NCBI GenBank assembly: GCA_027604185.1
Contig: JADGKB010000143.1
Span: 1 to 30,309 of the forward strand
Direction of reading: 5' to 3'
DNA: 30,309 nucleotides
Source: Boothiomyces macroporosus
Lineage: Eukaryota > Chytridiomycota > Chytridiomycetes > Rhizophydiales > Terramycetaceae
Shown: piece after piece, positions 1 to 24,809 of the stretch
Layout: each line of letters opens with the position of its first letter
Numbering within the stretch: the stretch's first letter is position 1
Notes under the pieces: generated by a model
Seen by the model: the letters and a program-made list of their open reading frames with translations, nothing else
The model's database searches: none
Told to the model about the DNA's origin: nothing
Program-made: the position numbers and the translations under genes

Positions 1-1123
1 GGAAGGCATAAGCAATTCTATCGAATGAACCATGATTTCTGCTGTCGTTGAATTTACCAAGTCTTGCCTTTAGGGTTAAAGTATAGTCTGGTGCAACAGA
101 GTGGATAGGCACTATTGGGACCAATTGGGTTTCGTCCAAAGTGAATGCTGGTACTGGCCCTGTGTAGTTGAACATTGGCGCAGCAGGGTCGTACTGCAAT
201 GTAGAAATGACCGATTTGGAGTAGTTTGCAGGAAAATTGTTTCCAAACATGTCTTCATTGAAATCAACATGGATTTGGTAGTTGTAATCCGTGCTATCCA
301 AAGTTTGTACAACAACAGAGTATCTTTGAGCAGCACCAAGTAGCACACATTCAACATCGTATGGTTGAACACTGACTCCATCAACTTCAATAATAGTCAA
401 GTTGTGATTTTCGATCCAGAATTGCATTGGTGCATAAGTACCCATCAGGATTAATCTAAATCTGTAACCTTGTCCTGGCTGAACTGAAAATATTTGATTT
501 GGTGCATCATTCACGATAGGAGCACTTGGTATTGGCTCAGTACCTTCTCCATTAAACTGCAAAAAGTAGTCGTTGTACTATGTTAGGTTGAAACTTACAA
601 ATATATCCTCATAGGTGCGATCATACCAGTCTGCCAAGCCAAGCGTGAATTCATCCACGTATCCGTATCTTGCTGGATCGCTACTGTCCTTGATAACAAG
701 AGGCGTTCTAAATCCATTTGGATAATCACCGAACCCGTGGCCGTGAATCCTAAATTACTTTTTTTAGTACCAGTATGAGCCAGTTTGACTCAGGTTGATC
801 ACATATGTATAGTTGGAGTTGAACGGAATCCCACAATCATTGATTCCCAGGGCACCGTCATAATAGTTGGTGCCATTCTGGAAAAGTCCATGGAAATGGA
901 CAGAAGTTACAAGGCCTTCCTTTAATACATTCCTTGCGTTGATGACTAGAGTATCGCCTTGATTAGCAATAACTGGCGGGATTGGCCACTGTCCATTTAC
1001 ACCAATAACTTGTCTAGGGAAACCACCTCTTGGATCTCCACCGTCAACGTAGCCAATATCCCAGTTCAAAGTGATCACTTCACAGTGAATAACGGCGAGC
1101 AAATTTAACCAAAGCCACTGCAT
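1..1123 (-). CDS. Multicopper oxidase (laccase-like), tandem copy 1, 3' end cut by window
   Basis: This is the 5' two thirds of a secreted blue-copper oxidase, which couples one-electron oxidation of phenolic or metal substrates to reduction of O2. The ATG is at 1123, exon 1 is 771-1123, intron 1 is 750-770 (21 nt), exon 2 is 599-749, intron 2 is 578-598 (21 nt), and exon 3 runs off the left edge. The N-terminus has a short hydrophobic signal-like segment (residues 2-13). Copper motif 1 (HFHG, residues 76-79) and motif 2 (HGH, 120-122, formed across intron 1) are present. Motifs 3 and 4 lie outside the window. Apart from a few bases it is identical to copy 2 at 1474-3144. The substrate cannot be decided from sequence; Fet3-type ferroxidase and ascomycete-type laccase are both possible. 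Confidence 0.9.
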
Positions 1124-1473
1124 ATTTGAATGTATTCTTTTTTTCCACCTTCTATTAATAGACTTTGGTTCCTGTATTGGGCTGATCAAACCGCGTGGGG
1201 GCTGGTTACACAAGAACCAGGAATTGAGTTGGATTTGTCCGTTAAACAGGATGTACGAGGTAACTATAGGGCAGATAAAGCACTAACGTATTCCGTCCGT
1301 TAGTATTTTGCTTGTATTGCACAGGAAGAATTGTTGTCTGATTTTAGTGTTTAATGTGCACAGAGCAAGCATGTGTCTGTACCTCAACACCAACAGCAAT
1401 ATTAGCTCAGGTGCAACCATGCAGTTTACCGCAAGGTAATGCAAGACAATTGACTTATTAAAAAATTACTGTT
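1124..1473 (-). promoter_or_regulatory. Upstream region of oxidase copy 1
   Basis: This is the 350-bp spacer between the copy 1 start and the copy 2 stop, and it should hold the copy 1 promoter and the copy 2 3' end. It is repeated almost unchanged at 3145-3494 and 5166-5516. It contains a perfect 7-bp inverted repeat at 1282-1304 and a TATTAATA stretch around 1152-1160, about 30 bp before the ATG, that could act as a weak TATA element. I see no gene in it. Confidence 0.6.
1282..1304. promoter_or_regulatory. Inverted repeat ACTAACG-N9-CGTTAGT (copy 1 promoter)
   Basis: Two perfect 7-bp arms separated by 9 bp lie about 160 bp upstream of the oxidase start. The shape suits a dimeric transcription-factor site. 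It is conserved in all three near-identical promoters, but because these are recent duplicates that is not independent evidence of function. I did not find it upstream of copy 4. Confidence 0.4.
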
Positions 1474-3144
1474 TTATTCCAAGATATAACGCAATGGTGG
1501 GGCCAATCCGGTAAAAGTGGAATTGTCTGGATATCCAGCAGCGTTTCCAGATATTTTCATTCCTCTTGCTCTGCAGTTATTCTTCATTTGAGTAGGAATG
1601 ACTTGAGTCTTTTGCATTTGTAATGGAGCCTCGATAATTTGTGCTGCCAATCCAGTGGCGAAATGCCATTGGATATGGCAGTGGAACGGCCATACACCAG
1701 GGTTATCAGATCTAAATCTAATAGCTACCCATCCTTTCTTTGGTACGATAACTGTATCTCTTCTTACAGGGTTCTTTAGTGAGTTGAACACTGGAAGCAA
1801 AGCAGTTTCATTGTAGTAAGGGGTATCGCTTTTCCCTACAATTTGGAAAGAATGACCATGCAAATGGAATGGATGATCACCTTCTTTGTCCAAATTCAAT
1901 ACCACAAGTTGAATCATTTGGTTGTGTGGCAACACATTCGAGTGAGTAGCAGGGCCGTAAATGGCATTCTGGGTTGCTAAATCACCCATAGTAGTAGCGG
2001 ATAGGATTGCAGGGACATTTGGGAAGGCATAAGCAATTCTATCGAATGAACCATGATTTCTGCTGTCGTTGAATTTACCAAGTCTTGCCTTTAGGGTTAA
2101 AGTATAGTCTGGTGCAACAGAGTGGATAGGCACTATTGGGACCAATTGGGTTTCGTCCAAAGTGAATGCTGGTACTGGCCCTGTGTAGTTGAACATTGGC
2201 GCAGCAGGGTCGTACTGCAATGTAGAAATGACCGATTTGGAGTAGTTTGCAGGAAAATTGTTTCCAAACATGTCTTCATTGAAATCAACATGGATTTGGT
2301 AGTTGTAATCCGTGCTATCCAAAGTTTGTACAACAACAGAGTATCTTTGAGCAGCACCAAGTAGCACACATTCAACATCGTATGGTTGAACACTGACTCC
2401 ATCAACTTCAATAATAGTCAAGTTGTGATTTTCGATCCAGAATTGCATTGGTGCATAAGTACCCATCAGGATTAATCTAAATCTGTAACCTTGTCCTGGC
2501 TGAACTGAAAATATTTGATTTGGTGCATCATTCACGATAGGAGCACTTGGTATTGGCTCAGTACCTTCTCCATTAAACTGCAAAAAGTAGTCGTTGTACT
2601 ATGTTAGGTTGAAACTTACAAATATATCCTCATATGTGCGATCATACCAGTCTGCCAAGCCAAGCGTGAATTCATCCACGTATCCGTATCTTGCTGGATC
2701 GCTACTGTCCTTGATAACAAGAGGCGTTCTAAATCCATTTGGATAATCACCGAACCCGTGGCCGTGAATCCTAAATTACTTTTTTTAGTACCAGTATGAG
2801 CCAGTTTGACTCAGGTTGACCACATATGTATAGTTGGAGTTGAACGGAATCCCACAATCATTGATTCCCAGGGCACCGTCATAATAGTTGGTGCCATTCT
2901 GGAAAAGTCCATGGAAATGGACAGAAGTTACAAGGCCTTCCTTTAATACATTCCTTGCGTTGATGACTAGAGTATCGCCTTGATTAGCAATAACTGGCGG
3001 GATTGGCCACTGTCCATTTACACCAATAACTTGTCTCGGGAAACCACCTCTTGGATCTCCACCGTCAACGTAGCCAATATCCCAGTTCAAAGTGATCACT
3101 TCACAGTGAATAACGGCGAGCAAATTTAACCAAAGCCACTGCAT
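1474..3144 (-). CDS. Multicopper oxidase (laccase-like), tandem copy 2, intact
   Basis: This is a complete secreted multicopper oxidase of 542 residues. Exons are 2792-3144, 2620-2770 and 1474-2598; both introns (2771-2791 and 2599-2619) are 21 nt. Splicing keeps the frame and rebuilds motif 2 (YWIHGH, residues 117-122). Motif 1 is HFHG (76-79), motif 3 HPFHLHGH (410-417) and motif 4 HCHIQWH (474-480), with the type 1 copper Cys at 475 and Leu ten residues later as the axial position, typical of medium-potential enzymes. There is a signal-like hydrophobic N-terminus, several N-glycosylation sequons and no C-terminal membrane anchor, so it is probably extracellular. The start at 3144 is preferred over a longer upstream frame because copy 3 has a one-base insertion that breaks that extension. 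The domain order is that of Fet3 and fungal laccases; the substrate is unknown. Confidence 0.93.
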
Positions 3145-3494
3145 ATTTGAATGTATTCTTTTTTTCCACCTTCTATTAATAGACTTTGGTTCCTGTATTG
3201 GGCTGATCAAACCGCGTGGGGGCTGGTTACACAAGAACCAGGAATTGAGTTGGATTTGTCCGTTAAACAGGATGTAAGAGGTAAATATAGGGCAGATAAA
3301 GCACTAACGTATTCCGTCCGTTAGTATTTTGCTTGTATTGCACAGGAAGAATTGTTGTCTGATTTTAGTGTTTAATGTGCACAGAGCAAGCATGTGTCTG
3401 TACCTCAACACCAACAGCAATATTAGCTCAGGTGCAACCATGCAGTTTACCGCAAGGTAATGCAGGACAATTGACTTATTAAAAAATTACTGTT
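3145..3494 (-). promoter_or_regulatory. Upstream region of oxidase copy 2
   Basis: Second occurrence of the spacer seen at 1124-1473, with only scattered base changes (for example near 3276-3286 and at 3464). The same inverted repeat is at 3303-3325. No gene seen. Confidence 0.6.
3303..3325. promoter_or_regulatory. Inverted repeat ACTAACG-N9-CGTTAGT (copy 2 promoter)
   Basis: Same element as at 1282-1304, unchanged, upstream of oxidase copy 2. Confidence 0.4.
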
Positions 3495-5165
3495 TTATTC
3501 CAAGATATAACGCAATGGTGGGGCCAATCCGGTAAAAGTGGAATTGTCTGGATATCCAGCAGCGTTTCCAGATATTTTCATTCCTCTTGCTCTGCAGTTA
3601 TTCTTCATTTGAGTAGGAATGACTTGAGTCTTTTGCATTTGTAATGGAGCCTCGATAATTTGTGCTGCCAATCCAGTGGCGAAATGCCATTGGATATGGC
3701 AGTGGAACGGCCATACACCAGGGTTATCAGATCTAAATCTAATAGCTACCCATCCTTTCTTTGGTACGATAACTGTATCTCTTCTTACAGGGTTCTTTAG
3801 TGAGTTGAACACTGGAAGCAAAGCAGTTTCGTTGTAGTATGGAGTGCTGCTTTTCCCTACAATTTGGAAAGAATGACCGTGCAAGTGGAATGGATGAGAT
3901 CCTTCCTTGTCCAAATTCAATACCACAAGTTGAATCATTTGGTTGTGTGGCAACACATTCGAGTGAGTAGCAGGGCCGTAAATGGCATTCTGGGTTGCTA
4001 AATCACCCATAGTAGTAGCGGATAGGATTGCAGGGACATTTGGGAAGGCATAAGCGATTCTATCGAATGAACCATGATTTCTGCTGTCGTTGAATTTACC
4101 AAGTCTTGCCTTTAGGGTTAAAGTATAGTCTGGTGCAACAGAGTGGATAGGCACTATTGGGACCAATTGGGTTTCGTCCAAAGTGAATGCTGGTACTGGC
4201 CCTGTGTAGTTGAACATTGGCGCAGCAGGGTCGTACTGCAATGTAGAAATGACCGATTTGGAGTAGTTTGCAGGAAAATTGTTTCCAAACATGTCTTCAT
4301 TGAAATCAACATGGATTTGGTAGTTGTAATCCGTGCTATCCAAAGTTTGTACAACAACAGAGTATCTTTGAGCAGCACCAAGTAGCACACATTCAACATC
4401 GTATGGTTGAACACTGACTCCATCAACTTCAATAATAGTCAAGTTGTGATTTTCGATCCAGAATTGCATTGGTGCATAAGTACCCATCAGGATTAATCTA
4501 AATCTGTAACCTTGTCCTGGCTGAACTGAAAATATTTGATTTGGTGCATCATTCACGATAGGAGCACTTGGTATTGGCTCAGTACCTTCTCCATTAAACT
4601 GCAAAAAGTAGTCGTTGTACTATGTTAGGTTGAAACTTACAAATATATCCTCATATGTGCGATCATACCAGTCTGCCAAGCCAAGCGTGAATTCATCCAC
4701 GTATCCGTATCTTGCTGGATCGCTACTGTCCTTGATAACAAGAGGCGTTCTAAATCCATTTGGATAATCACCGAACCCGTGGCCGTGAATCCTAAATTAC
4801 TTTTTTTAGTACCAGTATGAGCCAGTTTGACTCAGGTTGACCACATATGTATAGTTGGAGTTGAACGGAATCCCACAATCATTGATTCCCAGGGCACCGT
4901 CATAATAGTTGGTGCCATTCTGGAAAAGTCCATGGAAATGGACAGAAGTTACAAGGCCTTCCTTTAATACATTCCTTGCGTTGATGACTAGAGTATCGCC
5001 TTGATTAGCAATAACTGGCGGGATTGGCCACTGTCCATTTACACCAATAACTTGTCTCGGGAAACCACCTCTTGGATCTCCACCGTCAACGTAGCCAATA
5101 TCCCAGTTCAAAGTGATCACTTCACAGTGAATAACGGCGAGCAAATTTAACCAAAGCCACTGCAT
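3495..5165 (-). CDS. Multicopper oxidase (laccase-like), tandem copy 3, intact
   Basis: This complete 542-residue oxidase is built exactly like copy 2: exons 4813-5165, 4641-4791 and 3495-4619, separated by 21-nt introns. All four copper-binding motifs are present. It differs from copy 2 mainly in a short patch (about 3830-3905) encoding the segment around motif 3. There, Asp before HPFHLHGH becomes Ser, and Asp in the following KSDTPYY becomes Ser, along with several silent changes. Part of that patch (the stretch giving KSSTPYYNE) matches copy 4. This looks like gene conversion or selection at the type 1 copper side. A single-T insertion near 5190, upstream of the start, closes the longer reading frame seen in copies 1 and 2 and supports the ATG at 5165. 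Confidence 0.93.
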
Positions 5166-5516
5166 ATTTGAATGTATTCTTTTTTTTCCACCTTCTATTA
5201 ATAGACTTTGGTTCCTGTATTGGGCTGATCAAACCGCGTGGGGGCTGGTTACACAAGAACCAGGAATTGAGTTGGATTTGTCCGTTAAACAGGATGTACG
5301 AGGTAACTATAGGGCAGATAAAGCACTAACGTATTCCGTCCGTTAGTATTTTGCTTGTATTGCACAGGAAGAATTGTTGTCTGATTTTAGTGTTTAATGT
5401 GCACAGAGCAAGCATGTGTCTGTACCTCAACACCAACAGCAATATTAGCTCAGGTGCAACCATGCAGTTTACCGCAAGGTAATGCAAGACAATTGACTTA
5501 TTAAAAAATTACTGTT
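5166..5516 (-). promoter_or_regulatory. Upstream region of oxidase copy 3
   Basis: Third occurrence of the shared spacer, one base longer through an extra T in the poly-T near 5190. It carries the inverted repeat at 5325-5347. Its left part is the copy 3 promoter and its right end is the 3' flank of copy 4. No gene seen. Confidence 0.6.
5325..5347. promoter_or_regulatory. Inverted repeat ACTAACG-N9-CGTTAGT (copy 3 promoter)
   Basis: Same element as at 1282-1304, unchanged, upstream of oxidase copy 3. Confidence 0.4.
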
Positions 5517-7183
5517 TTATTCCAAGATATAACGCAAAGGTGGAGCCAGCCCGGTAAAAGTGGAATTGTCTGGATATCCAGCAGCGTTTCCAGATATTTT
5601 CATTCCTCTTGCTCTGCAGTTATTCTTCATTTGAGTAGGAATGACTTGAGTCTTTTGCAGTTGTAGTGGAGCTTCGATAAACTGCGCAGCCAATCCAGTG
5701 GCTAAATGCCATTGGATATGGCAGTGGAATGGCCAAACACCAGGGTTATCAGCCCTGAACCTTAGAACTGCCCATCCTTTCTTTGGTACGATAACGGTAT
5801 CTCTTCTTACAGGATTCTTTAGTGCATTGAACACTGGATTCAATGCAGTTTCATTGTAGTATGGAGTGCTGCTTTTCCCTACAATTTGGAAAACATGGCC
5901 GTGCAAATGGAATGGATGATCACCTTCTTTGTCCAAATTCAACACCACAAGTTGAATCATTTGGTTGTATGGGAGTACATTTGAGTGAGTGGCAGGTCCA
6001 TAAATTGCGTCTTGCGTAGCCAAATCTCCCATCGTAGTTGCAGACAATAAACGTTAGGCAAAGCATATGCAACTCTATCAAAGGAGCCATGGTTTCTATC
6101 GTCATTGAATTTTCCAAAGATCACTTTATAAGTCAAGGTAAAGTCAGGAGCAACAGAGTGGATTTTTTCCAAAGGAGCCAATTGAGTTTCATCCAAAGTG
6201 AAATTTGGTTCAGTACCAGTATAGTTGAACATTGGAGAACCTGAAAAGTATTCCAAAGTAGCAGTAACAGATCTAGTATAGTTTGCAGGGAAATGTTCAC
6301 CAAACATGTCTTCGTCAAAGTCAACGTGAACTTTGTAGTTGTAATCAAACGAATCATATGTGTTTACCAAGACAGAGTATCTTTGTGAGGCACCAAGTAG
6401 CAACACGTCGACTTCATACGGCTCTACTCGAATACCGTCTACTTCAATAATAGTAAGGTTGTGGTTTTCAATCCAGAACTTCATGGAAGCAAAAGTTGCC
6501 ATAGAGATAACACGGAATCTATAAGTAGAGGATGGCATGACTGAGAATACTTGATTTGGAGCATCGTTGATAACTGGCCCAGAAGGAATAGGCTCACTTC
6601 CTTCTCCGTTAAACTTGATAAAGAATTGATTGTACTAGCATTAGGAAATTATTACGAATAAGTCTTCGAATTCAGAGTCGTACCAATCAGACAATCCCAA
6701 GGTGAATTCATCCAAGTATTCATAAGTAAGGTTATCTTCCAAACTTTGAATAACAAGAGGAGTGCGGAAACCATTTGGATAATCGCCAAATCCATGTCCA
6801 TGAATCCTATCATAAGTAATCTATTACCAATAGCTTCCAACTTGATCCAACTTTACACGATAAGTATAGCTGTTACCATATGGAATACCGCAGTCATTTA
6901 TACCCAAAGCACCATCATAATAATTGGTTCCGTTTTGGAAAATACCATGGAAATGAATTGAAGTAGGTGGCCCTCTTTGCATATTATTTTTAGCGTGGAT
7001 AACCAGTTCATCATACTGATTAGCAATAACTGGTGGAATTGGCCATTGTCCATTGACACCAATAACTCTTCTTGGAAATCCTCCTCTTGGGTCGGCATTT
7101 TCAACGTAATCAATTTCCCAATTGAGCTCGATCACTGCTGCGCTGATCAGAGCGATACATGCTGGTAATAATTTCCACTGCAT
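5517..7183 (-). pseudogene. Multicopper oxidase copy 4, diverged and frameshifted
   Basis: This paralogue of copies 1-3 has the same exon plan: exon 1 6828-7183, intron 6807-6827 (21 nt), exon 2 6656-6806, intron 6635-6655 (21 nt), exon 3 from 6634 down. Motif 1 (HFHG) and motif 2 (HGH) are intact. Near 6046-6056 the sequence is 7 bp shorter than copies 2 and 3, just after the codons for AYALPNV, and the frame shifts. The original frame stops at 5957. The rest (motif 3 HPFHLHGH, motif 4 HCHIQWH and the C-terminus) is open only in another frame, ending at 5517. The intact frame would give an enzyme without its type 1 and trinuclear C-terminal ligands. No plausible 19-22-nt intron repairs it. 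A base-calling error is the alternative to a real pseudogene, since the downstream frame is otherwise clean. The last ~140 bp are almost identical to copies 2-3 while the rest is clearly diverged. Confidence 0.75.
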
Positions 7184-7859: not shown

Positions 7860-10188
7860 CTAACATTGATCATTATTAACAGGGGTTGTGGTTGCGGCTG
7901 CTGGATTAAAGATAAAGCTAAACCCTCCCAAAGTAGCTGTTTGACCAGGCACAGTAAAATTTGGGAATACTATAATTTGGTCAGTTGGTGTTGCAGAAGA
8001 ACTACTTGTGCCAGAACTTGCTAGTGGAGAAGGGCAAACAGTTATAGTGCTCGAACTACCAGCGCTACCTATTTGAGTAGTTGGAGTGCTTAAAGATTGG
8101 TTAGTGGGGTAACTTGGCGTTTGGCTGGAAGCAACGAAAGACATTTGTGTTGGAGTACTAGCTGTTTGACTAGGTGTAGGGATAGATGTTTGTGCAGTAC
8201 CAGTACTCGATGTTTGAACGACAGAGGTGCTAGGGGCTTGTGCGGTACTGGGGATTTGAGTAGTCGAAGTAGGTATTAAAGTGAAAACGCCAACAGTAGA
8301 CTGGATGTAAGGACTGCCAACTGTCGATGTTAAACTAGATACTGTCGGTGATGGGTTTAAAGTAGACAAAGTAATTTGAGGTATTACGCTATCCGTAGTA
8401 ACAAGTGTACTGGTAGTGCCAGTATTCCACAGAGCACTAGATGCAGCTGGGGGATTGGAAGATGTAAAAACTGAGCTGTTGGGTGTGGCAGTCAACAAAG
8501 GAACTATAGTTGTTGAAAATGCAGCACTAGTCATTGTTTGAGCGTCAATAGTTGCAGTTCCGGCGGTTGAACTAATAGTCGCGGCAGCAGAATAATTAGG
8601 GATTGTTCCACCATTTGGCAAATTCGGATTAAAGTTTATGTACAAATCCCAACTTTGAAGGATCCTGCTATGGGTTTCAATGAATGCAGGGGATGAACTT
8701 GAAGATGGTAGTGATAAATCTTGACAATGTCGGCCACCGCTATTATTGAGCACAATATTTGGGAGTTCGAATCCAGGACCTGGCTGTCCAGGATTTGTAC
8801 TCAATTGAACATCATTTGGAGTCACAGAGAGGAAAGAATATGGGTCTGTATCGCCATTTACAAAAACTATTCTGGTTGTAGCAGTGTAAATTCCTAATCC
8901 CAGGTATTGTGAATTGACCCGAGTTACATTTGGTCTAAAGTTTGGAATATTAAACGTGACAGTACATAACCAATGAAAGTAATCGACAGTCAAATACCTG
9001 GAATACGCTGTTGTAGATTGGGTGGAATGAACTTGGAAATATCCAAAATCCCTGCAAATCTGACATAAACAACTAATTACCTGCCAAGTCCACAGTTTAA
9101 GCGAAGGATTTGTCTCGTTCGCCAACGTATCCAACTTTGAGAAACTCTGCGGGGTAGGATATTTGATTTTAATAAACTGTATATAATCAGCCAACAGCTC
9201 TGCGTCGCTGGAGCTTGGATCAATGAATGCAGGAACAAAGTCCCCAGAGCACACATAAGTAACTGATTTTGTGTAGTTGAAATTACCTAAATCCACATAA
9301 TCAGAAATTCCATACTGAACCAATGTAGCGAAATTGGTTGAAACCCCAGCCAAGTCACGGACATCAAGATTGGGAGGTGCTCCGACAGCATTTAGAACAA
9401 CTGAAGCGTTGTTTGAAGCGATAAAGTCATCAAACAACCCAACTGCTCTTCTCCAGCCAGCTGCGCACACTTGCGAACCTCCACTTTTAGATAATCCGAT
9501 ATCAACTCCATAGCCATACTGCCAAAAGTCTTCAATTGCGTTTAAAGGAGCCGAAGAAGAGTGAGCTGCGTATACAAGATTAGGGTATTTGAGCCTCATC
9601 CATGCCGCTAAATTTCCTACATTTTAAACGAAAAGTACCTGCATAACTCCCACCTATGGTTATCCATTTACTAGTCAATAAAGTTGAATTGTACCCTTTA
9701 ATGAACTCTGCAGTGTCGGCTAGCACTTGGTCAACAGTCAACCATTGCAAATTGTCTGGGGTGAAATCTTTGACAGTCAAATTTGCGACTGGCTGAGAAG
9801 TTCCTTTTCCGTAGTAGCGGTGCTCCAGTGCGATATGCAGACCGCTATAGCGCTTGGTCATTTCTGATATTAGGGAAAAGTCAGCATAGTACTGTCCTAA
9901 TGGCGCTTCTCCTCCCAATTCTAGAAATATTGGGCCTCCAGGCTGATAAAACCTCGAGTCTACATAGTACAGCTGCTGCCAGGTGTTGTTATCGCTCGGG
10001 TTGAAGTGGTCTCTTTTCTGTGTGAAATAGTAATATGGATATCGTCCTGATGGCGTGTCTGAAGCAGATACTGGCTTGTTGAACAATCCTTGTTTGTTAT
10101 GAATTCTCATCTGATTCGCCTCGGCAAGTGATACATGATGCAGCTTTGAAGTCACTGCGACAATCAGCAACACAAGTTCAAACAACAT
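7860..10188 (-). CDS. Secreted serine carboxypeptidase, family S28 (prolyl carboxypeptidase/DPP2-like)
   Basis: This 761-residue secreted peptidase of family S28 is expected to cleave proline-containing peptides outside the cell or in the vacuole. Exons are 9639-10188, 9081-9616 and 7860-9059; introns are 9617-9638 (22 nt) and 9060-9080 (21 nt). The first splice joins GGSYAG (nucleophile Ser181) to NLAAWMRLKYP, and the second rebuilds WTWQICRDFGYFQ, both highly typical of S28. The acid is the Asp in NGDTDPY and the base the His in GGRHCQDL. A hydrophobic signal peptide covers residues 2-13, followed by the family start FTQKRDHFNP. Beyond the catalytic part, roughly 200 residues rich in Ser, Thr and Pro form a mucin-like tail that typical S28 enzymes lack, probably O-glycosylated. 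There is no C-terminal hydrophobic segment, so a GPI anchor is unlikely. Confidence 0.92.
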
Positions 10189-10934: not shown

Positions 10935-12387
<1,453 letters not shown>

Positions 12388-13667: not shown

Positions 13668-13893
13668 TATTTATAATTTATAATTTTTAATAATTAGGAA
13701 ACTCAGCGTAACACTGACCAGTCCCAAAATTAAATAAGAGTTTTTCATTTGCAGAATTTAATTCCATCAACGTTTCTATGCCGCTCTTATTGATATTGCA
13801 CAGTAGAGCAATCTGGGTGTCTTGTCTAAATTGCCAGAAAGATTATCCAGATGATCAACCACCAAGTAAATCGAGATAACTAGTCTATTTTAT

Positions 13894-15048
13894 TCAGTAA
13901 GAGTATTTCACCAACATTCCGCTGTCGTAGCATGGAATATAAAGCTCCACACCACCATCATTATCTAAATCACCAACAGCAATACCACCAGTGGTCCCTT
14001 TGCAGTCGTGCAGCATATTGGTATTGAACGCAAAGTCGTTGTTGTTTTGGTTAGCCGCATCAATCAAATATACTTGTTGAGCTCCATCTCCAGAAACTAC
14101 AATGGATGGCTTGTTTTGACCTGGGACGGGGTAGAACGCAGTTGCAAACCCGGGAGCAGCCTGGTTGAATCCACCTTCACGGATTTTATATGGCCCTTGA
14201 GAAATTGTATGTCTTGTCCACTGTCCATTGACAAATTCGTATCCCCAAACTCCTCCATTTCCAGATCCATCGTGATTGGTAGCCAAGATATCCATTTTGC
14301 CATCACCGTTCAAGTCAACAACTTGTACACCAAACATTGCTTTCATGGAGCTGTCAACAGTAGTCTTTTTCAGTTTAGAGTCGTCATCGAATCGTCCATT
14401 GTTTGATTCAATGATAGTCAGTTTGTCCCCCCAGAATTCTGAAGCAACAAGGTCAATATTTCCGTCTCCATTTACATCTTTCAAGTGGAAGAAAGTATCA
14501 CATCCCTTTCCAATAATAGTTTCTGTCCATGGACCTAATGGGTTTGAACGGTCAGCTGGTTGCAACCATGTCAAATCGCCGCCTGCTGGCGGTCCAAATA
14601 TTGGAGTTCCAGCAGTGCCACGGCATGTAATAATATCCAACTGTCCATCTTGGTTGACATCATAAAATTCTGCTTGATGGTAAAAGTATCCATGCGCCTT
14701 GAACAATACAGTAATACCACCAGATGCAGCAGCAAACGAAATAGTACCATCGGTCTTTAAAGGCACCAAGAATCCTCCTGCAATGATTGAGCCTGGAACA
14801 CCAAAAATAGAGTCTGGTGCAACTGTAGCAGTGTTTGGCCAACTCGTAGTTCCCAAATAACTAACGACCATATCATCGACATTATTGATTGCGAATGCAG
14901 AGTTGGCTGCAAAAGGATCAACACCAAAGCACGACAATACAAGTGAGTTGTTTACAGCACTCGCAAATGCGACATTTTTAACCTTTACTTGGGTGACAAG
15001 AGATGGTGCTGTAGCAGTAGCTAAACTGAAAAGAAGTTGAGAGATCAT
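13894..15048 (-). CDS. Secreted FG-GAP/VCBS repeat protein A
   Basis: This intronless protein of 384 residues has a short signal-like N-terminus (MISQLLFSLATATA). The body is a set of FG-GAP/VCBS-type blades, each with an Asp-rich calcium-binding loop: DVNQDGQLDI, DVNGDGNIDL, DLNGDGKMDI and a degenerate DLDNDGGVEL. Such repeats build beta-propellers like those of integrin alpha heads and are common in secreted or surface proteins. There is no catalytic motif, transmembrane helix or GPI signal. The protein is highly similar throughout to the next gene upstream (15445-16584), so the pair arose by tandem duplication. A TATA box lies 31 bp before the ATG. The molecular role is unknown; extracellular binding or adhesion is inferred from the fold only. 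Confidence 0.85.
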   Translation of the reverse strand: MISQLLFSLATATAPSLVTQVKVKNVAFASAVNNSLVLSCFGVDPFAANSAFAINNVDDMVVSYLGTTSWPNTATVAPDSIFGVPGSIIAGGFLVPLKTDGTISFAAASGGITVLFKAHGYFYHQAEFYDVNQDGQLDIITCRGTAGTPIFGPPAGGDLTWLQPADRSNPLGPWTETIIGKGCDTFFHLKDVNGDGNIDLVASEFWGDKLTIIESNNGRFDDDSKLKKTTVDSSMKAMFGVQVVDLNGDGKMDILATNHDGSGNGGVWGYEFVNGQWTRHTISQGPYKIREGGFNQAAPGFATAFYPVPGQNKPSIVVSGDGAQQVYLIDAANQNNNDFAFNTNMLHDCKGTTGGIAVGDLDNDGGVELYIPCYDSGMLVKYSY

Positions 15049-15444
15049 ATTCTATTATTACTGGTGAATTTCAAGAGATTTTATACTGCTTTGCGGGCCT
15101 AAAAAATTTGGCGCTGATGCTCGTAAACCGATTTGGCATGTTTCAATTCCCTTTTGGTGCAACCAAAACACTTGCAACGAGTTTGAAAAAAAAGCGTGGA
15201 TACCTTCAAGCCTGCCCTACAGTATCATTCAAAGAATTCCCTTGCAGATTTCCCGTCTGAAATTGCTTCTTGTTCTTGACAGTCCTTGCCTGATTCCACC
15301 ACTGGCCCGAATGATTCCCCGCCTACCATATGATAACCCCACGTACGAGAAAAAAAGGGAACTCGCCAAGAACAATTATGGAATCTAAACCAGACTCAAA
15401 GAAATAGTTTAATCTCCTCTTTGACTTCACAGCGGGGATTTTAT
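15049..15444 (-). promoter_or_regulatory. Upstream region of FG-GAP gene A
   Basis: 396 bp between the two FG-GAP genes. It contains TATAAAA at 15079-15085 and short A-runs; I see no gene or RNA. By position it holds the promoter of gene A and the 3' end of gene B. Confidence 0.5.
15079..15085 (-). promoter_or_regulatory. TATA box of FG-GAP gene A
   Basis: The minus strand reads AGTATAAAATC, ending about 31 bp before the ATG at 15048. This again implies a leader of only a few bases. Confidence 0.5.
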
Positions 15445-16584
15445 TCAATAAGAGTATTTAACCAAGTATCCCTTGTCGTAGCAAGGAATATAGAGTTCAT
15501 AATTACCATCATTGTTCAAATCTCCAACTGCAACTCCTCCAGAAGTACCTTGACAGTCGTGCAACATGGTTGTGTTGTAAGAGAAATCGTTTGTAGTTTG
15601 AGAGGCTGGAGTAACTAGATATACTTGTTGTGCGCCATCTCCAGATACAACGATTGTTGGTTTGTTCAATCCCGCGGTTGGGAAATAAGCGCTTGCAAAT
15701 CCTGGAGCTGCTTGATTTAATCCCCATTCTCTAATTGGGTAATATCCAACTGATAAATCATGTCTAACCCAAGTTCCGTTTTGATTCTCATAACCATAGA
15801 CACCACCATTACCTGAACCATCGTGGTTAGTTGCTAAAATATCTAGTTGTCCATCACCGTTCAAGTCAATTACCTGGACGCCAAACATTGAACCCAAAGT
15901 ACTGTCTACAGTAGTTTTTACCAATTGGGTGTCTACATCAAATCTCCCTTGGTTCGATTGGATAATGGTCAGCTTCTTTCCCCAGAATTCAGAGGCAACA
16001 ATATCAACATATCCATCGCCATTGATATCCTTCAAGTCAAAGAAGGTGTCACATCCTTTTCCAATGACAGTTTCTTTCCATGCACCAAGTGGTTTAGTAC
16101 GATCAACAGGTTCCAGCCAAGTTAAATCACCACCAGCAGACGAGAAAAATCCTCCATTTTTACCTCTGCAAGTGAGGATATCCAGTTTTCCATCTTGGTT
16201 TACATCGTAAAATTCTGCCTGGTGGTAAAAGTACCCACTGGCTTTAAAGAGAGTAGTGATTCCTCCGGATAATGGAGAGAATGCAATTGTTCCATCAGAT
16301 TTGCCAGGAACCAAGAATCCTCCAGCAATGATTGCACCTGGCATTCCAAAGAGAGAATCTGGGGCTTCAGTGGCAGTATTTGGCCAGTTGGTGTTTCCAA
16401 GCTTTCTAGTTGTAAATGTATTGACATTATCGATAATGTATTCAGCATTAGTCCCAAAGGCAGCAAAAGTGGACAGATATAGCGAAGAATTAACAACATT
16501 GGCAAAGGCAACATTGGACAAACTTACTCTTTGGACTTCGGAAGGAGAAGCAGTAGCAAGTGAAAACAAGAGATTTGAGAGCAT
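15445..16584 (-). CDS. Secreted FG-GAP/VCBS repeat protein B
   Basis: This intronless, 379-residue paralogue of the protein at 13894-15048 has the same length and order of blades: DVNQDGKLDI, DINGDGYVDI, DLNGDGQLDI and DLNNDGNYEL, a signal-like start (MLSNLLFSLATA) and the same C-terminal end (LVKYSY). The two align almost without gaps but differ at many positions, so this duplication is much older than that of the oxidases. It is probably secreted and calcium-stabilised. An AGATAAAAAG stretch about 20 bp before the ATG may be a weak TATA-like element. Function unknown beyond the propeller fold. Confidence 0.85.
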   Translation of the reverse strand: MLSNLLFSLATASPSEVQRVSLSNVAFANVVNSSLYLSTFAAFGTNAEYIIDNVNTFTTRKLGNTNWPNTATEAPDSLFGMPGAIIAGGFLVPGKSDGTIAFSPLSGGITTLFKASGYFYHQAEFYDVNQDGKLDILTCRGKNGGFFSSAGGDLTWLEPVDRTKPLGAWKETVIGKGCDTFFDLKDINGDGYVDIVASEFWGKKLTIIQSNQGRFDVDTQLVKTTVDSTLGSMFGVQVIDLNGDGQLDILATNHDGSGNGGVYGYENQNGTWVRHDLSVGYYPIREWGLNQAAPGFASAYFPTAGLNKPTIVVSGDGAQQVYLVTPASQTTNDFSYNTTMLHDCQGTSGGVAVGDLNNDGNYELYIPCYDKGYLVKYSY

Positions 16585-16765
16585 TACTCTTTTGTAGATG
16601 TTTATCTTTTTATCTTGAAGCTTGCGTTTCGGTCCGCAAAATCTGGGAACTCACTCCACATTTGCATCAAGTAAGAAGCGGGAATTCTCGAAAACGATAG
16701 GGTCGTGGAATGTAATATGACCATCTATCGATAGCCAAATAGATCCAAGAGAGCTAATCCTTTAT

Positions 16766-17418
16766 TCAATTCTTGCCCACATAAACGTACTTTTCGACTT
16801 TGCTCAAGGCTTGTTGATATGAAGGCATCTGGTGAATTTGGTTTGCCCAACGTTCCATGCCTTTTGTGTCAATGTCGACGATTCGCTTCATCAGGAAAAT
16901 TTCGATTGGCATGGACATTGCTTGATTAATAACTAATTACCAATATCTGCACCGCTAAACTCACCTGCAAACCATTCATGTTCCTTCAAGTGTTGTTCAA
17001 TGAATCCAAATATGTTGATTAGCCGCGGATACACTTTGGTTTTGAGTAACTCTTCTCGCTCCATATTGGCGGTATTCGCATGGATTACGATATCAGTCAT
17101 GGCTGATCCTTCAGCGAAATGCAACCAGAATCTAACCTGCAGCTTATCATCTAATGATTTTGGCAAGAGATTGATTGGATCAGTAAATGTTTCAACCAGA
17201 TATTCAATAATCGCTCCTGTTTCGACAATAACCCTTCCATTATGAGAAATCATCGGACATCTTCCCAGCGGATGTATTTGCTTCAATTCAACCGGCGCTC
17301 TTCGAGTAAGAGTGTCCATATCATACGCCTTGATCACATAATCAACTTGAAGGTGTTGCAAGAGCCAAATAATTCTTTGCGATCGGGAATTGTTCAAATG
17401 GTAGACAGTAACGCTCAT
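16766..17418 (-). CDS. Glutathione S-transferase, fungal Gtt1-like
   Basis: A cytosolic glutathione transferase of 210 residues. Exon 1 is 16941-17418, the intron 16921-16940 (20 nt) and exon 2 16766-16920, which ends in LSKVEKYVYVGKN and a TGA. The thioredoxin-like N-terminal domain (about residues 1-80) contains NSRSQRIIWLL, HPLGRCPMI with the cis-proline of the glutathione site, and ETGAIIEYLVE, the Glu-Ser/Thr pair that binds the glutamyl group. The all-helical C-terminal domain follows, with FSGADIAMSMP as the N-capping region formed across the splice. The residue layout is that of fungal Gtt1-type enzymes, which conjugate glutathione to electrophiles or reduce peroxides. It is divergent from the membrane protein gene on its right, with 176 bp between starts. 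Confidence 0.88.
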
Positions 17419-18356: not shown

Positions 18357-18368
18357 AACATTATATTA

Positions 18369-19918
18369 TTATTTCCTAGCTCTTCTTACAAACCTAGGAG
18401 TCTTTGGTTCAGTCAATGGTTTGTCACTAGGCTTGATTGCAAGCGGCTTTTGTTTCTTTACTGGCTGAGCTTTATGAACGATTTGCCTGCGCAATCTCTT
18501 GATTTCCTTTTCTTCTTGTTCCTACATTAGTCAAAAATACCTTTTTTAGTTTCTCCATCTTTTCAAGCAGCTCTTGTTCTTGCTGTTGTTTTTCCTTTAA
18601 TGATTGCTCATATTTTTGACGTTCTTTTTGTCTATTAGAGAGGTGCGACTGGAATTCTTGTATCTCTGTTAACGGTTTGTCGCTCTTCTTTGGAAGGAAC
18701 GGGTCTAATGGTGGCAGTGGTTGGGCTCTGAATTCTGCTTGCTTCTGTAGTTCCTCTTGTTCTTGTTCCAGCTTTTCTTGCAGCTGGTGTTTGTACAACT
18801 CTCCTCTTTTATCAGTCTCTAAATTAAACGGTTGTGGTTCTGTGATTTTGGTGTCATGATGTACTTGGAACGTCTGTATCAGCAATATTTACTTGATTTA
18901 GTTTTGGTTCATGAGCCTTGAATTCTCTTTGCTTTTTCAGTTCCATTTCTTCTTTTTCTTTCAATTCTTGGATTTCTCTTTGTTTCTGTTCATGAATATA
19001 ATCGCCAGGAAGATGAAACTCTGGAACTGGAATCTTGCGGTGCTCAATTTCCGGTTTAAATGGATTAGAGAGATCCGGAACTGGATTTGCTTTGATTATT
19101 TTAGGTGAAGGTGGTTTGATTTCTTTGGGTTGAGGTTTGTGGATGGCAGGCGATTGCGGAATTGTTAGTGGTAGAGGTGCCGGTTGTGGAAGGGAGTCTT
19201 TTAATTCCAGAATCTACATTAACTACACGTACTCTCTTGTTTAACGGCTTTGCTTTAAATGGCTGGATCTTTTTTAATTCCAATTCTTCCAATTCAGCAG
19301 CGGATGGCACATGCGGTCTTGTTAACATATAATTACTTGTTGTGCTGGGCTCTCAATTTCGTAGTAAGGAACGGAGACTGCGGATGTGTGAGTTTATCAT
19401 TCTGGGTAACTTTTTGAACAGGCTTCTTTGCAGGCTTTGTTTTGAATCTAGCTGGTGTCTGTTGGTGGAATTTGGATACTTTTACTGCCAATGGAACAAA
19501 TGGCGATTTTGGCTGAACTTGCGATTTGGTTTTGGAAAGATTAAATGGCTTTGGAATCGTCAACCCTCGCTTTGTTTTTTTCTATATTAATATAAAGTAC
19601 TTGAACTGCAGCTGGTTCAGCACGCTTTCGGAGAGTCATTGGATGGGTTAAACTCCTCTTTCTCAATTTCATTTTCGTTGGTGCAGGTCGTTTCTTTTCC
19701 TTCTTAGGTTTCTCTTCAGGCAGATCTGGTGTCTCTGTTCTTGTATCTATGGTTATAATATAATTACCAAACCAATTGTCCGGGTTTTTATCCTCTTGCT
19801 GAGAAAAGTCATGGAACTGCGGAGCATTAAATTCGAATGAAGGCGACTGCGATTTGTTTGTTGGTGTTGCTTCGTCATCATCGCGAGTCCTCTTTGGTTT
19901 TGGAGTTTCCAAGTCCAT
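18369..19918 (-). CDS. TPX2: TPX2-like spindle assembly factor / Aurora A activator
   Basis: TPX2 is a microtubule-binding protein that activates Aurora A and nucleates spindle microtubules. This copy has 477 residues in seven exons: 19768-19918, 19601-19746, 19337-19581, 19233-19317, 18893-19213, 18541-18873, 18369-18521. The introns are 21, 19, 19, 19, 19, 19 and 19 nt in all but count six: 19747-19767, 19582-19600, 19318-19336, 19214-19232, 18874-18892 and 18522-18540. Residues 28-38 (FEFNAPQFHDF) plus Trp49-Phe50 match the bipartite Aurora-binding motif of animal TPX2. Exon 4 gives ELEELELKKIQPFKAKPLNK; exon 6 gives QPFNLETDKRGE (330-341) then a charged coiled coil; exon 7 ends with RLRRQIVHKAQP, the classical TPX2 C-terminal block that in animals leads to the Eg5-binding tail. 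It is shorter than the ~750-residue vertebrate protein but complete at both ends. Confidence 0.9.
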
Positions 19919-20050
19919 TTGAGATGCTGTCCAGAAATTTTCATGTGGCTTGTTGTTTATATGGACAACACAGTAGTGATAGAACTAGAGATCTGAATAA
20001 GCTTAAAGATACTATAGTAATATGAAGCACGGATAAATTAAAAAAGAGAA

Positions 20051-20883
20051 TTATGTATTTTTTTCAACTACATCGCCTTTGTACAACCCATTCTGATGGA
20101 TGTAATCAACAACAGGGTCAGGCAAGAGGTACCGGATACTCATACCCCTACGGATAAACAATCTGATTTTAGTCGAGGAAATGTCGTTATGAATGTACTG
20201 TTTCACTACCCATACGTTTTTCTACGTTAATTCGAATTACCCTATGTACAAATAACGAATCATTCGTTAATAGGAAGTCATGAACATTGGCGCCAGTCCT
20301 TTCTATGATTAAACAGCCAAATCCGCCTAGAATGTAATACAACTACATTAGCTTCAATTACATCTTGCTCTTTCCATAAATTTGGTACGGCAAACGACTG
20401 AATCAAATCGCCTCCAGCTAGTAATACAATACGGATATGTTTGCGTTCATTGTTAACCAATAATCCACCATCCTTGTTCAAATACTCGTTAAAATGATCC
20501 AACACTTTTGCAGTTCTTATATAATCTACTTGACTAGGTTCCCAGCTATCTACCATGATCCATGTACTATCCTGGCAAGCCAAGGCACACATATTCACCC
20601 GATGTTGCCACGGTGCTAATCCTGGTTTCGCATATGCATCTGATACTGGCGAAAAGTATCCTCCAATAATTTCAAAGTTAGTATCTTGGATATAATCATA
20701 AGCCATTTCAAACATTCGCAAATGGAGATAAGTTACCGGCGAATAGGAACCACAGGCAACTACTACTAGAGGTGTTTTGGAGGTATCTTTTAATTTAGCT
20801 TTTAGTTTATGCGCTGGGAATTCGTAGTCTAATGGGAGAGTCGGTGATGCTTGAGAGTTCATTCTTGTAATTACTGCAGACAT
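20051..20883 (-). CDS. NMA1: Nicotinamide/nicotinate mononucleotide adenylyltransferase
   Basis: This enzyme transfers AMP from ATP to NMN or NaMN to make NAD or its deamido form. It has 264 residues; exons 20362-20883, 20241-20342 and 20051-20221; introns 20343-20361 and 20222-20240, both 19 nt. The nucleotidyltransferase signature GSYSPVTYLH is at residues 45-54, and the second ATP-binding motif, ISSTKIR, lies in exon 3 followed by RYLLPDPVVDYI. GGDLIQSFAVPNLW in exon 1 is the usual substrate-pocket segment. The first splice gives KEQDLYYILGGFGCLIIER, closely matching yeast Nma1/Nma2. Only 41 bp separate its ATG from the stop of the upstream WD40 gene. A CATGTGACTT stretch sits in that gap. 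Likely cytosolic or nuclear. Confidence 0.94.
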
Positions 20884-20924
20884 TTTTTAGATTTAAAAAA
20901 GACGCAAGTCACATGATTTGCAGA

Positions 20925-22028: not shown

Positions 22029-22070
22029 TCGGACAAAAAAATTGGAGAAAACCTAGGTTAAACAGTCTTT

Positions 22071-22180
22071 AAGGTTCAGACAAAGTTTATTTAAGGTTCA
22101 GATAAAGTTTATTTAAGGTTCAGATAAAGTTTATTTAAGGTTCAGATAAAGTTTATTTCAGGTTCAGATAAAGTTTATTT
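22071..22180. repeat. 22-bp minisatellite, five units
   Basis: Five head-to-tail 22-bp units (starts at 22071, 22093, 22115, 22137, 22159), each built on AGGTTCAGATAAAGTTTATT. Unit 1 has C for T in AGATAAAG and unit 5 begins CA instead of AA; otherwise they are identical. The block is bracketed by a second direct repeat, GGTTAAACAGTCTT, at about 22057 and 22184. It lies 43 bp upstream of the Cdt2-like ATG, within its promoter. There are no unique spacers, so it is not a CRISPR array. Confidence 0.9.
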
Positions 22181-22227
22181 AAGGTTAAACAGTCTTAAAG
22201 GATAAATTTTCAAATTTTTGACAAAAC

Positions 22228-22845
22228 TTAGTTTAATATAAGAGTGCTGGCAAATTTATCTTGTTCATTAATAGTGTCAAGCTCTATTATTTCAATTTTC
22301 TCTTCGATTACAACATTCATGTGATCCACAATGTAACAATACAGTAATACCTTTACAGACTGCATAACAACATTTATATCCAGAATCAATCCAATGAACC
22401 CGCAAACCACAAAAACGAAATATCCTAATTGTTGAATAATTGGTAACTGGAACGCTACATGTACAAATTGCATTGTTTCGTATATCAGTACCAGTGAGTT
22501 GAAGACGTAGTGGCCATAGTATTGGTACTCTGTTATCCACGACCGAGTTGATAGCAGTGGTTCAAAACAGCATACAATATACGCAGATATAGAGCAACTA
22601 AGTAACAAGTGACTATCAATTAATTGCAGCTCTAGTATAACCATCAACAATATCTGAAAATCTTGAATAACTGCAATGTCGAAAATCTCGAGTATACCAT
22701 TGATAATAGACACCAATAATATCGCTATTTTCAGTTTCTGATATTTATAGAATGTGGAAGGTATAGTCAGTAGTATTAGTATGAATGATAGTATTGAAGC
22801 AATCATCGTGGATGCGTGAAAAATGGTACAGGATTTATTTGGCAT
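22228..22845 (-). CDS. Multi-pass membrane protein, possible diverged member of the 7TM cluster
   Basis: A 205-residue hydrophobic protein with five to seven probable membrane helices and no recognised family. The open frame continues nine codons upstream to a TTG, but the first ATG is at 22845 (MPNKSC). Helix-like stretches include STMIASILSFILILLTI, KIAILLVSIINGILEIF, QILLMVILELQLI, and GYFVFVVCGFIGLILDI near the C-terminus, followed by VKVLLYCYIV and an acidic tail with EIIELDTINEQD. The last helix and acidic tail vaguely recall TM7 and LTEMEE of the neighbouring 7TM genes, and SWITEYQYYGHYVFNSL recalls their TM5 entry. The protein is about 65 residues shorter. It also lacks the ACGTCA start-proximal element. 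Either a decayed or diverged paralogue or an unrelated membrane protein. Confidence 0.6.
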   Translation of the reverse strand: MPNKSCTIFHASTMIASILSFILILLTIPSTFYKYQKLKIAILLVSIINGILEIFDIAVIQDFQILLMVILELQLIDSHLLLSCSISAYIVCCFEPLLSTRSWITEYQYYGHYVFNSLVLIYETMQFVHVAFQLPIIQQLGYFVFVVCGFIGLILDINVVMQSVKVLLYCYIVDHMNVVIEEKIEIIELDTINEQDKFASTLILN

Positions 22846-22971
22846 ATTTCTTATCTGATAAGGTTCATGCAAAGAAATACTATCAAGAAATTACTTTATA
22901 CCTAATGGAAATGTAATCCGTACAGATGCTAGTTATTCACTATTTATTTCCACGGGAATGATTAAAGCAAA

Positions 22972-23787
22972 TCAGGGGCTAATTTTGACAGTTTTCGCCA
23001 TAGATTCTTCTACTTGCAAAGGCCTGGTCTTCAATCCCAACAATGAGAGCTTCTTGAGCATTTCCAAAACATAAATTAGACATACACAGTGTATTCCCAC
23101 CATGACCTGCACAGTGGTTTGAAGAAGGAAATTGGCTTCTAAATTCACGTTATCTACTTGGTTGATAGTTTCAATAACAAACAAGCCCATTCCAAACCAA
23201 TCGAATAGTAAAATTGATAGATTTAATAGGATCATTCGTTTTAGCTGTTTATGCACACCGCCTTGGTCTCTAGAATACTTCTTTAATTTGAACACAAGAT
23301 TAGTGAGATAGAATCCTTGAGAGTTGTCATAGAGCACAGTCATGCCACCAAACACGTTTATCCCTATTGCATTTGTATCTTGATACCAGATATTCGATGA
23401 TACTGCTGACAGGATGCTAGGAAATAGCACTATTATCACATATGCTGATAATATTACCATTTGCATTACTCTTAGTTTTGAATCAGTGATTTTTTCATTT
23501 AGAACTGAAAATACACGCAGTATCTCTATATTCACCAATGAAATCAACAGTATCTGGAAATTTGAGATATATACACACACGGTGACTAGTACATTAGTAT
23601 GCTGAATGATTTTAATGATATTCAATACACAAATAAGCATATTTGTAAATGTAACAAAGAGAAACAGCTTGAGGATTGTGGACGGCGATTTGCGAATGTA
23701 GTTTAGTGTGTATAATGTGAATAAGATTAGTATTGAAAGGGTACTGATTAGTAGGATGCAAATTGGATTTGACAGTGTGATGGGCAT
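22972..23787 (-). CDS. GPCR-like 7TM protein 1 (minus-strand member)
   Basis: An intronless protein of 271 residues with seven probable transmembrane helices and a very short N-terminus. It belongs to the same family as the five plus-strand genes at 25247-29862. It shares NIEILRVFSVLNEKITDSKLR at the end of TM3, a TM5 segment with DNSQGFYLTNLVFKLKK, LLFDWFGMGLFV in TM6 and a TM7 ending VGIHCVCLIYVLEMLKKLSL. It is the most divergent of the six typical members. Positive residues in the loop after TM1 (YIRKS) and in the TM5-TM6 loop suggest these face the cytosol, so the N-terminus is probably outside, as in GPCRs. ACGTCAC sits 7 bp before the ATG. Ligand and coupling unknown. Confidence 0.78.
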   Translation of the reverse strand: MPITLSNPICILLISTLSILILFTLYTLNYIRKSPSTILKLFLFVTFTNMLICVLNIIKIIQHTNVLVTVCVYISNFQILLISLVNIEILRVFSVLNEKITDSKLRVMQMVILSAYVIIVLFPSILSAVSSNIWYQDTNAIGINVFGGMTVLYDNSQGFYLTNLVFKLKKYSRDQGGVHKQLKRMILLNLSILLFDWFGMGLFVIETINQVDNVNLEANFLLQTTVQVMVGIHCVCLIYVLEMLKKLSLLGLKTRPLQVEESMAKTVKISP

Positions 23788-23794
23788 TTGGCAA

Positions 23795-23801
23795 GTGACG
23801 T
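23795..23801 (-). promoter_or_regulatory. ACGTCA element before 7TM gene 1
   Basis: The minus strand reads ACGTCAC with 7 bp between it and the ATG at 23787. It is the same core found close to the start codons of the five plus-strand 7TM genes. Confidence 0.5.
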
Positions 23802-23910
23802 GTTTCTTTGAAAAATACAGCGATATAGTTGGCTCATATTAATACTATATTGTTTGAAACTTTGCATACTGGGTGTATTTAGGCAAAGAGAAAGATTTAA
23901 ACTGAATATA

Positions 23911-24809
23911 TTAAACTCTAGCTTTTATCCACTCAATGTAAGACTGGATAGTTTGCTCTTTATCCAATTCGTTATGCAGCTCATGGCGCGCTTCTGGAAT
24001 AGATACAAATTGCTTGTCTATACTTTGAATAATTTCAATAAACTTTTCAGAGGCATCGTGGCTAGTCAATTCATCATCAGTTCCATGAGTAATTAGAATA
24101 GGGGTTTTGAAATCAGCAGAGAATTTGTTTAGTATATCATCTCCGTTTGAAAACATATCATCAACCAGTTTGAAATTTACCCACGTGTGAATGAAAGGAT
24201 CTTCCCTGTAAACCTGAACTGCATATTCATCCCTTGAAATGATGTTGTAGTCAAATACTAGAGGGATGCGGGCAGAGTGTAGCAATTTTTGTGATATAAT
24301 AGTCTTGAAAGCTTTTTGCAAAATATTAGGCTCGTGCCCTGCAGAGCTAGGTCGATAAGTCCCTGAAATTAGCAATAATAACCTTCAATTAGAGGAGAGC
24401 AAGCAACTACACCGTCAACTAATTCGGGAAATTCAACAGCGAATCTAATACACAATCCACCACCCATGGAGTGACCCATACTAAAGTGTTTCTTCCCAGG
24501 GATCTTTATCATATTTGTGACCGCTAGTGCATCCTGCATAGTGTATTCCAGACCATCGGTTACACCTTGTTTCCCATATCGCTTTGCAGTTCTACCGAAC
24601 CCTCGTTGATCAAAGGCGCCAATCATCATCCCAGCTTTTGCCATACCAGCAAACAAATGTTCATACCGATTGATATGCTCTCCAAGCCCATGAAAGAAAA
24701 TCACAGTACACAAGACTGGCTGGTTGAATGGAATCCATTGCTTTGTGTATATTTGAGCTTTTTCAGGTCGGTCCAACCAAATTTCTTTGAATTCGTAGGT
24801 AGTGGCCAT
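23911..24809 (-). CDS. YJU3: Monoglyceride lipase-like alpha/beta hydrolase
   Basis: A serine hydrolase of 292 residues, expected to release fatty acid from monoacylglycerol. Exon 1 is 24383-24809, the intron 24363-24382 (20 nt, with an unusual GTTATT 5' end) and exon 2 23911-24362. The oxyanion-hole HG is at residues 40-41 (FFHGLGEH), the nucleophile elbow GHSMG at 112-116 with Ser114, the acid Asp in THGTDDELT and the base His in EARHELHNE. Length and spacing match yeast Yju3 and animal MGLL. The open frame continues 41 codons upstream, but the ATG at 24809 gives the normal family N-terminus (TYEFKEIWLDRP). It interrupts the 7TM cluster; nothing else suggests a functional link. Likely on lipid droplets or membranes, as known for Yju3. 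Confidence 0.9.

Follow-up and report, generated by a model that had tools for sequence, protein, structure and literature searches.

Ultra-short-intron genomes are a recognized kind, known from nucleomorphs and ciliates. In the chlorarachniophytes Bigelowiella natans and Lotharella oceanica, nucleomorph genomes of 0.37-0.61 Mb carry about 1000 introns, which are GT-AG, A+T rich, 18-23 bp long with a mode of 19, and most commonly of phase 0 (PMC4035089, in part). The ciliates Paramecium and Nyctotherus likewise have only ultra-short introns, in their case of about 25 bp and with those of 3n length depleted and rich in stops (PMC5014332, in part). Here we describe nuclear introns of 19-22 nt, lengths near the lower limit on record for ciliates and algal nucleomorphs, in Boothiomyces macroporosus (Chytridiomycota, Rhizophydiales, Terramycetaceae), using one entire contig of the 15.2-Mb, 216-contig assembly (C143, 30309 bp; hereafter the window) together with a sample of the remaining genome. 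The host of these introns is a chytrid fungus with an ordinary nuclear genome. Two public B. macroporosus proteins, P0121 and P0243, match the TPX2 and S28 peptidase genes of the window, respectively, and the closest relatives by protein are Boothiomyces sp. JEL0866 and Terramyces sp. JEL0728.

The likeness to nucleomorph introns extends to length, ends, composition and the prevalence of phase 0, whereas the setting differs: the nucleomorphs are reduced endosymbiont genomes, and the Boothiomyces introns, roughly 15,000 with a mode of 20 nt, occupy a 15.2-Mb nuclear genome (PMC4035089, in part). Another parallel is the ciliate Stentor coeruleus, where a single rigid length class is also found in a nuclear genome and the introns are GT-AG, A+T rich, with a 5-nt tail past the branch adenosine, and accompanied by canonical U1 and U2 recognition sequences (PMC9505925, in part). 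In the published sections drawn on here, the Stentor introns measure 15-16 nt, place the branch A at position 10-11 and lack a strong branch consensus, in contrast to 19-22 nt, a branch A at 14-16 and a clear TTAAY/CTAAY motif in Boothiomyces; Slu7, not found in Stentor according to the same sections, is present in Boothiomyces (PMC9505925). The short tail common to the two has the appearance of a minimum reached convergently. A branch site only a few nucleotides before the AG, with no intervening polypyrimidine tract, is also described for Yarrowia lipolytica, Giardia and Trichomonas, which differ in being intron-poor and in anchoring at the 3' end only; in most fungi the branch point lies about 13-25 nt from the intron end (PMC2483917, in part). 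Within the fungi, the quoted short example in the sections at hand of a survey of 644 genomes has a mean of 63 bp, and two chytrids appear in its density table (PMC8476143). Our literature search, with most subscription papers outside its reach, found no fungus in which introns of 19-22 nt are the rule.

The 26 introns of the window

Introns were re-placed by script, removing the proposed segments from eleven gene copies and then reading the frames. This gave 26 introns, eight of 19 nt, seven of 20 nt, ten of 21 nt and one of 22 nt, every one of them GT..AG. The counts are identical to those of the original prediction, whose starting coordinate of 599 was one base off, the first intron being 578-598. 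Once the introns are removed, nine complete genes read without an internal stop, in agreement with the earlier claim for complete intact genes; of the remaining copies, multicopper oxidase (MCO) copy 1 is truncated by the contig end and MCO copy 4, which has a stop at 5957, is not an intact gene. Retention leads to an early stop for 24 of the introns. The other two, both of 21 nt (9060-9080 in the S28 gene and 19747-19767 in TPX2), would be read through in frame if retained, and their assignment rests on homologues. Eight of the introns sit in the four tandem MCO copies, with those of copies 1-3 identical, so the 26 amount to 22 distinct sequences at 20 distinct gene positions and are not fully independent. 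The individual introns, all on the minus strand, are as follows.

578-598 (-): intron 2, 21 nt, MCO copy 1 (gene cut at contig end); script, position shared with scanned copy 3
750-770 (-): intron 1, 21 nt, MCO copy 1; script placement
2599-2619 (-): intron 2, 21 nt, MCO copy 2; script placement
2771-2791 (-): intron 1, 21 nt, MCO copy 2; script placement
4620-4640 (-): intron 2, 21 nt, MCO copy 3; script, junction within Cu-oxidase match
4792-4812 (-): intron 1, 21 nt, MCO copy 3; script, junction within Cu-oxidase_3 match
6635-6655 (-): intron 2, 21 nt, MCO copy 4 (diverged, not intact); script placement
6807-6827 (-): intron 1, 21 nt, MCO copy 4; script placement
9060-9080 (-): intron 2, 21 nt, S28 peptidase; Pfam match, P0241 and P0242 without insertion
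9617-9638 (-): intron 1, 22 nt, S28 peptidase; script, Pfam match
11178-11196 (-): intron 4, 19 nt, ARG4; script, homologue alignment
11422-11441 (-): intron 3, 20 nt, ARG4; script, homologue alignment
11538-11557 (-): intron 2, 20 nt, ARG4; script, homologue alignment
12349-12368 (-): intron 1, 20 nt, ARG4; script, homologue alignment
12875-12894 (-): intron 2, 20 nt, putative glycosyltransferase; frame and motif only
13413-13432 (-): intron 1, 20 nt, putative glycosyltransferase; frame and motif only
16921-16940 (-): intron, 20 nt, glutathione S-transferase (GST); frame and motif only, outside Pfam match
18522-18540 (-): intron 6, 19 nt, TPX2; spliced in Terramyces P0122, retained in P0121 with loss of frame
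18874-18892 (-): intron 5, 19 nt, TPX2; splice agrees with Terramyces P0122, not with P0121
19214-19232 (-): intron 4, 19 nt, TPX2; script, homologue proteins
19318-19336 (-): intron 3, 19 nt, TPX2; script, homologue proteins
19582-19600 (-): intron 2, 19 nt, TPX2; script, homologue proteins
19747-19767 (-): intron 1, 21 nt, TPX2; without counterpart in Kappamyces P0123, seven residues in P0121 and P0122
20222-20240 (-): intron 2, 19 nt, NMNAT; script, junction within Pfam match
20343-20361 (-): intron 1, 19 nt, NMNAT; script, junction within Pfam match, homologue proteins
24363-24382 (-): intron, 20 nt, lipase/serine hydrolase; script, junction within Hydrolase_4 match

With respect to the claim that splicing restores conserved protein, 23 of the 26 junctions are backed by homologous proteins or paralogous copies. 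These comprise four in ARG4, which aligns to PDB 1aos without gaps; two in MCO that fall within Pfam matches in the scanned copy, with six more by paralogy; two in S28, two in NMNAT and one in the lipase that lie inside Pfam matches; and six in TPX2, of which five are backed by Terramyces P0122 (with a one-residue difference next to the junction at 19318-19336) and one by Kappamyces P0123. The two in-frame cases are both covered, as nothing is inserted at 9060-9080 in the S28 orthologues P0241 and P0242 or at 19747-19767 in P0123, although P0121 and P0122 keep seven residues at the latter. The remaining three junctions, two in the putative glycosyltransferase, whose Pfam match is below the cut-off (E 6.5e-4, residues 9-42), and one in GST, were placed by frame and splice motif. 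The four MCO copies themselves occupy 1-7183 (-), copies 1-3 as near-identical units of about 2 kb and copy 4 diverged, with its frame broken near 6045.

Comparison with public gene models provides a further view of these introns. The model P0121, from this contig, fuses NMNAT and TPX2 and agrees with the re-derived splicing at four of eight introns; at the other four, one 21-nt intron is kept as seven residues, one boundary is moved by three residues, and two further introns are mis-spliced or retained, which costs the model its TPX2 domain. The Terramyces model P0122 shows the same fusion; it keeps an in-frame 21-nt segment with other residues at the place of 19747-19767 and matches the re-derived splicing at the remaining TPX2 junctions. 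The two genes are 133 bp apart on the same strand (20051-19918) with a stop between them in the window; both models join them. In JEL0866, seven extra residues stand in the S28 protein P0241 where the window gene has its 22-nt intron (9617-9638), and back-translation yields what is apparently a 21-nt GTAAT...AG segment, that is, a retained intron. At two TPX2 intron places, one Kappamyces protein is set apart from another by 11 and 8 residues, respectively, a difference suggestive of introns measuring 33 and 24 nt. Taken together, these peptides hint at older introns that were shortened stepwise.

Prevalence and splice signals

The genome sample combined the window with 20 further 10-kb stretches and came to 230,309 bases. 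In a scan for GT..AG removals that restore the coding frame, compared with seven control dinucleotide pairs, 44, 83 and 31 pairs were obtained at 19, 20 and 21 nt, against control maxima of 24, 28 and 8; pairs of 22 nt were not separated from controls (23 versus 23). An apparent excess at 31 nt (14 clusters) had no splice signal and was set aside as noise.

A gene finder for coding introns, with a flat length preference from 12 to 400 nt and re-trained on its own output, called 382 introns in the sample, 217 of which were 19-22 nt long (38, 105, 54 and 20 at 19, 20, 21 and 22 nt). The same gene finder run with reversed splice signals as decoys called 277, with 3 in this range. No length class outside 19-22 nt rose above the decoys among coding introns of at most 400 nt (165 real calls versus 274, lower in each bin). 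Re-training was seeded with introns of 15-30 nt, and signals particular to long introns would be under-weighted; a first pass free of splice signals already peaked at 20 nt (24 of 103). Recovery of 21 of the 26 window introns serves as a guide to sensitivity. The gene finder joins neighbouring genes and selects some wrong long introns. It proposed a 46-nt intron at 18874-18892, where homologous proteins favour 19 nt, and a 50-nt intron from the donor of glycosyltransferase intron 1 (13413-13432), where the script placed the 20-nt version instead.

Across the whole assembly, the pattern GTAATTN{0,30}YTAAYNYAG has 719 matches compared with 90 for its reverse, an excess of about 8-fold. Among 100 matches listed, 57 are 19 nt, 24 are 20 nt, 3 are 21 nt and 4 are 22 nt, giving 88 at 19-22 nt. 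With the gap set to 35-65, corresponding to 50-80 nt, the matches number 119 against 83 reversed. Intron density in the sample, about 0.97 per kb, scales to the rough genome-wide estimate given above. Nearly all introns thus fall below about 35 nt and into one narrow class, as in other ultra-short-intron genomes.

The donor consensus among gene-finder introns of the sample is AAG/GTAATT, with A at +3 in 92%, A at +4 in 64% and T at +6 in 62%. Position +5 is T in 100 of 217 and G in only 36, so that the usual pairing of a +5 G with U1 and U6 is mostly not made; whether a sample intron has G at +5 showed no clear relation to an AG at -2/-1. Of 224 sample introns measuring 17-24 nt, all but one (223) contain an assignable branch-like motif, mostly TTAAT, TTAAC, CTAAT or CTAAC and thus YTRAY-like. 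By this assignment, the branch A falls at intron position 14-16 in 216 of 223 and lies 5 or 6 nt from the 3' end, with its YAG, in 205. The introns are 71% A+T. In-frame stops occur in 48 of 54 introns of 21 nt, 15 of 38 of 19 nt, 65 of 105 of 20 nt and 5 of 20 of 22 nt, counts that are biased because a 3n intron lacking a stop may be taken for exon and that we left unused, though they would fit stop enrichment in 3n introns.

The RNA components of the spliceosome read so far are canonical, as their motifs are those expected: the U1 gene has the 5' end AUACUUACCUG (68.8 bits, slightly under the gathering score of 69.5), each of two U2 copies has GUAGUA, and U6 has ACAGAGA. A search of the assembly for 5.8S rRNA gave no match. 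On the protein side, a U2AF65-like gene and a Slu7 gene were identified. At the locus of the former the gene finder calls five tiny introns (19, 19, 20, 19 and 19 nt), one of which belongs to a neighbouring gene joined through a 253-nt call; at the latter it calls introns of 21 and 20 nt in addition to one of 167 nt. As a separate observation made by eye, the U6 gene (L029) reads AUUACAGAGA, in which AUUAC is complementary to GUAAU of the donor consensus; this may be chance. The corresponding U6 stretch is AUACAGAGA in yeast and human.

Alternative explanations and a probable minimal intron

With GT-AG ends, a branch motif and a YAG acceptor, and with U1, U2 and U6 carrying canonical recognition sequences, these introns look like members of the U2-type class. 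In our judgement they are very probably U2-type spliceosomal introns, reduced in the B. macroporosus nuclear genome to about the minimum needed for the two catalytic steps. Several points weigh against this view. The introns are placed from genomic and protein sequence, and the branch points were called by motif. The sample stretches were mostly picked around RRM matches and are therefore non-random. The gene finder also made longer calls (165 in total, including 253 nt at L033 and 167 nt at L041), which we take as background because decoys yield more. The rarity of +5 G despite a canonical U1 5' end is not explained by an ordinary U2-type reading; a donor +5 G is a usual, not absolute, feature of U2-type introns. 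Finally, a search without a positive control found no match to the RED_N or RED_C Pfam models of RED, a protein required for short introns in human cells.

That the segments are not spliced at all, and are instead bypassed by the ribosome or are assembly or sequencing errors, would accord with the true frame break in MCO copy 4, and the case for splicing is built on DNA and protein sequence. It is nonetheless scarcely credible, given that every segment has a GT start, an AG end and a branch-like motif, that the pattern stands about 8-fold above its reversed control genome-wide, and that canonical U1, U2 and U6 are present. Furthermore, in proteins of related species, predicted from other genomes, the corresponding places are either free of the segments or hold apparent retained introns of other sequence. 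A more serious alternative, which we still regard as unlikely, is that the tiny introns are the major class and that a fair number of ordinary introns was missed in untranslated regions, above 400 nt or with other signals. The models did cover only coding introns of up to 400 nt, the 50-80 nt pattern is in small excess (119 versus 83), and the two proteins from Kappamyces, of a related family, suggest introns of 24 and 33 nt. Against this, real calls past 22 nt are fewer than decoy calls in every length bin, and by eye some of the long matches enclose a tiny intron or bridge two neighbouring ones.

The uniform length could also reflect a recent burst of introner-like insertions of fixed size, consistent with the very even lengths and shared end motifs. 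We consider this improbable, since intron interiors are dissimilar (as judged by eye, without clustering) and some positions appear to be old: from peptides, two TPX2 positions seemingly carry introns of other lengths in Kappamyces as well, and one S28 position seemingly has an intron in JEL0866. Intron positions held in common with these relatives favour the shrinking of older introns, and the portion of the fungal survey used here reconstructs Chytridiomycota as ancestrally intron-rich (PMC8476143). The original prediction of real GT-AG introns that keep to 19-22 nt as a rule is supported, as is their setting in a free-standing nuclear genome, that of a fungus, and the contrary case, a genome dominated by introns of 50-100 nt, is contradicted by both the genome-wide pattern and the comparison of gene finder with decoys. 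The literature also bears out the parallel it drew to ciliates and the Bigelowiella nucleomorph.

In terms of mechanism, shrunken U2-type introns would be removed by the major spliceosome through intron definition. The lariat loop would measure about 14-16 nt, and the first AG past the branch point would be used without scanning. The geometry of the human B complex is estimated to need about 52 nt from donor to branch site (PMC6692369, in part). Because the spacing here is far below that figure, U1, U6 and U2 would have to occupy the donor and branch regions sequentially or in an altered geometry. By analogy, Stentor and the chlorarachniophyte nucleomorphs, in the sections cited above, show that such spacing can be workable. 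The length-measuring spliceosome originally proposed was not established; what the sequence exhibits is two short spacings. Minimum spacings combined with deletion can give a tight length, and no measuring device is required; on the present reading the narrow spread comes from two minimum spacings plus removal of longer sequence, and not necessarily from an active ruler.

Neighbouring genes and significance

The remainder of the window contains several further features. Two tandem intronless genes for secreted proteins lie at 13860-16600 (-), which we take to be FG-GAP/VCBS-like. A tandem, apparently intronless cluster encoding similar multi-pass membrane proteins without a family name is located at 25247-29862 (+) and 22200-23800 (-), and at 22070-22200 copies of AGGTTCAGATAAAGTTTATTTA, or of a similar unit, form a short tandem repeat that adjoins a WD-repeat-like gene.

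At a practical level, public gene models can mishandle the tiny introns, as seen in the fusion of NMNAT with TPX2 and the loss of the TPX2 domain. Some tiny introns are already included in these models, and the fact has therefore been latent in the databases. More tentatively, and with considerable doubt, the spliceosome of Boothiomyces, and perhaps of all Terramycetaceae, might be obligately short, with introns above about 22 nt beyond its capacity, the +5 G requirement dropped, perhaps the Smu1/RED bridge dropped as well, and both spacings in effect fixed. If true, opisthokonts would gain their first example of such a system, in an organism that can be cultured. Independently of this, a fungus, nearer than ciliates or nucleomorphs to yeast and human, whose spliceosomes are structurally known, seems to manage with a branch A at position 14-16 and canonical snRNA recognition sequences, which makes the minimum size of an intron testable by comparison within chytrids and by structure.

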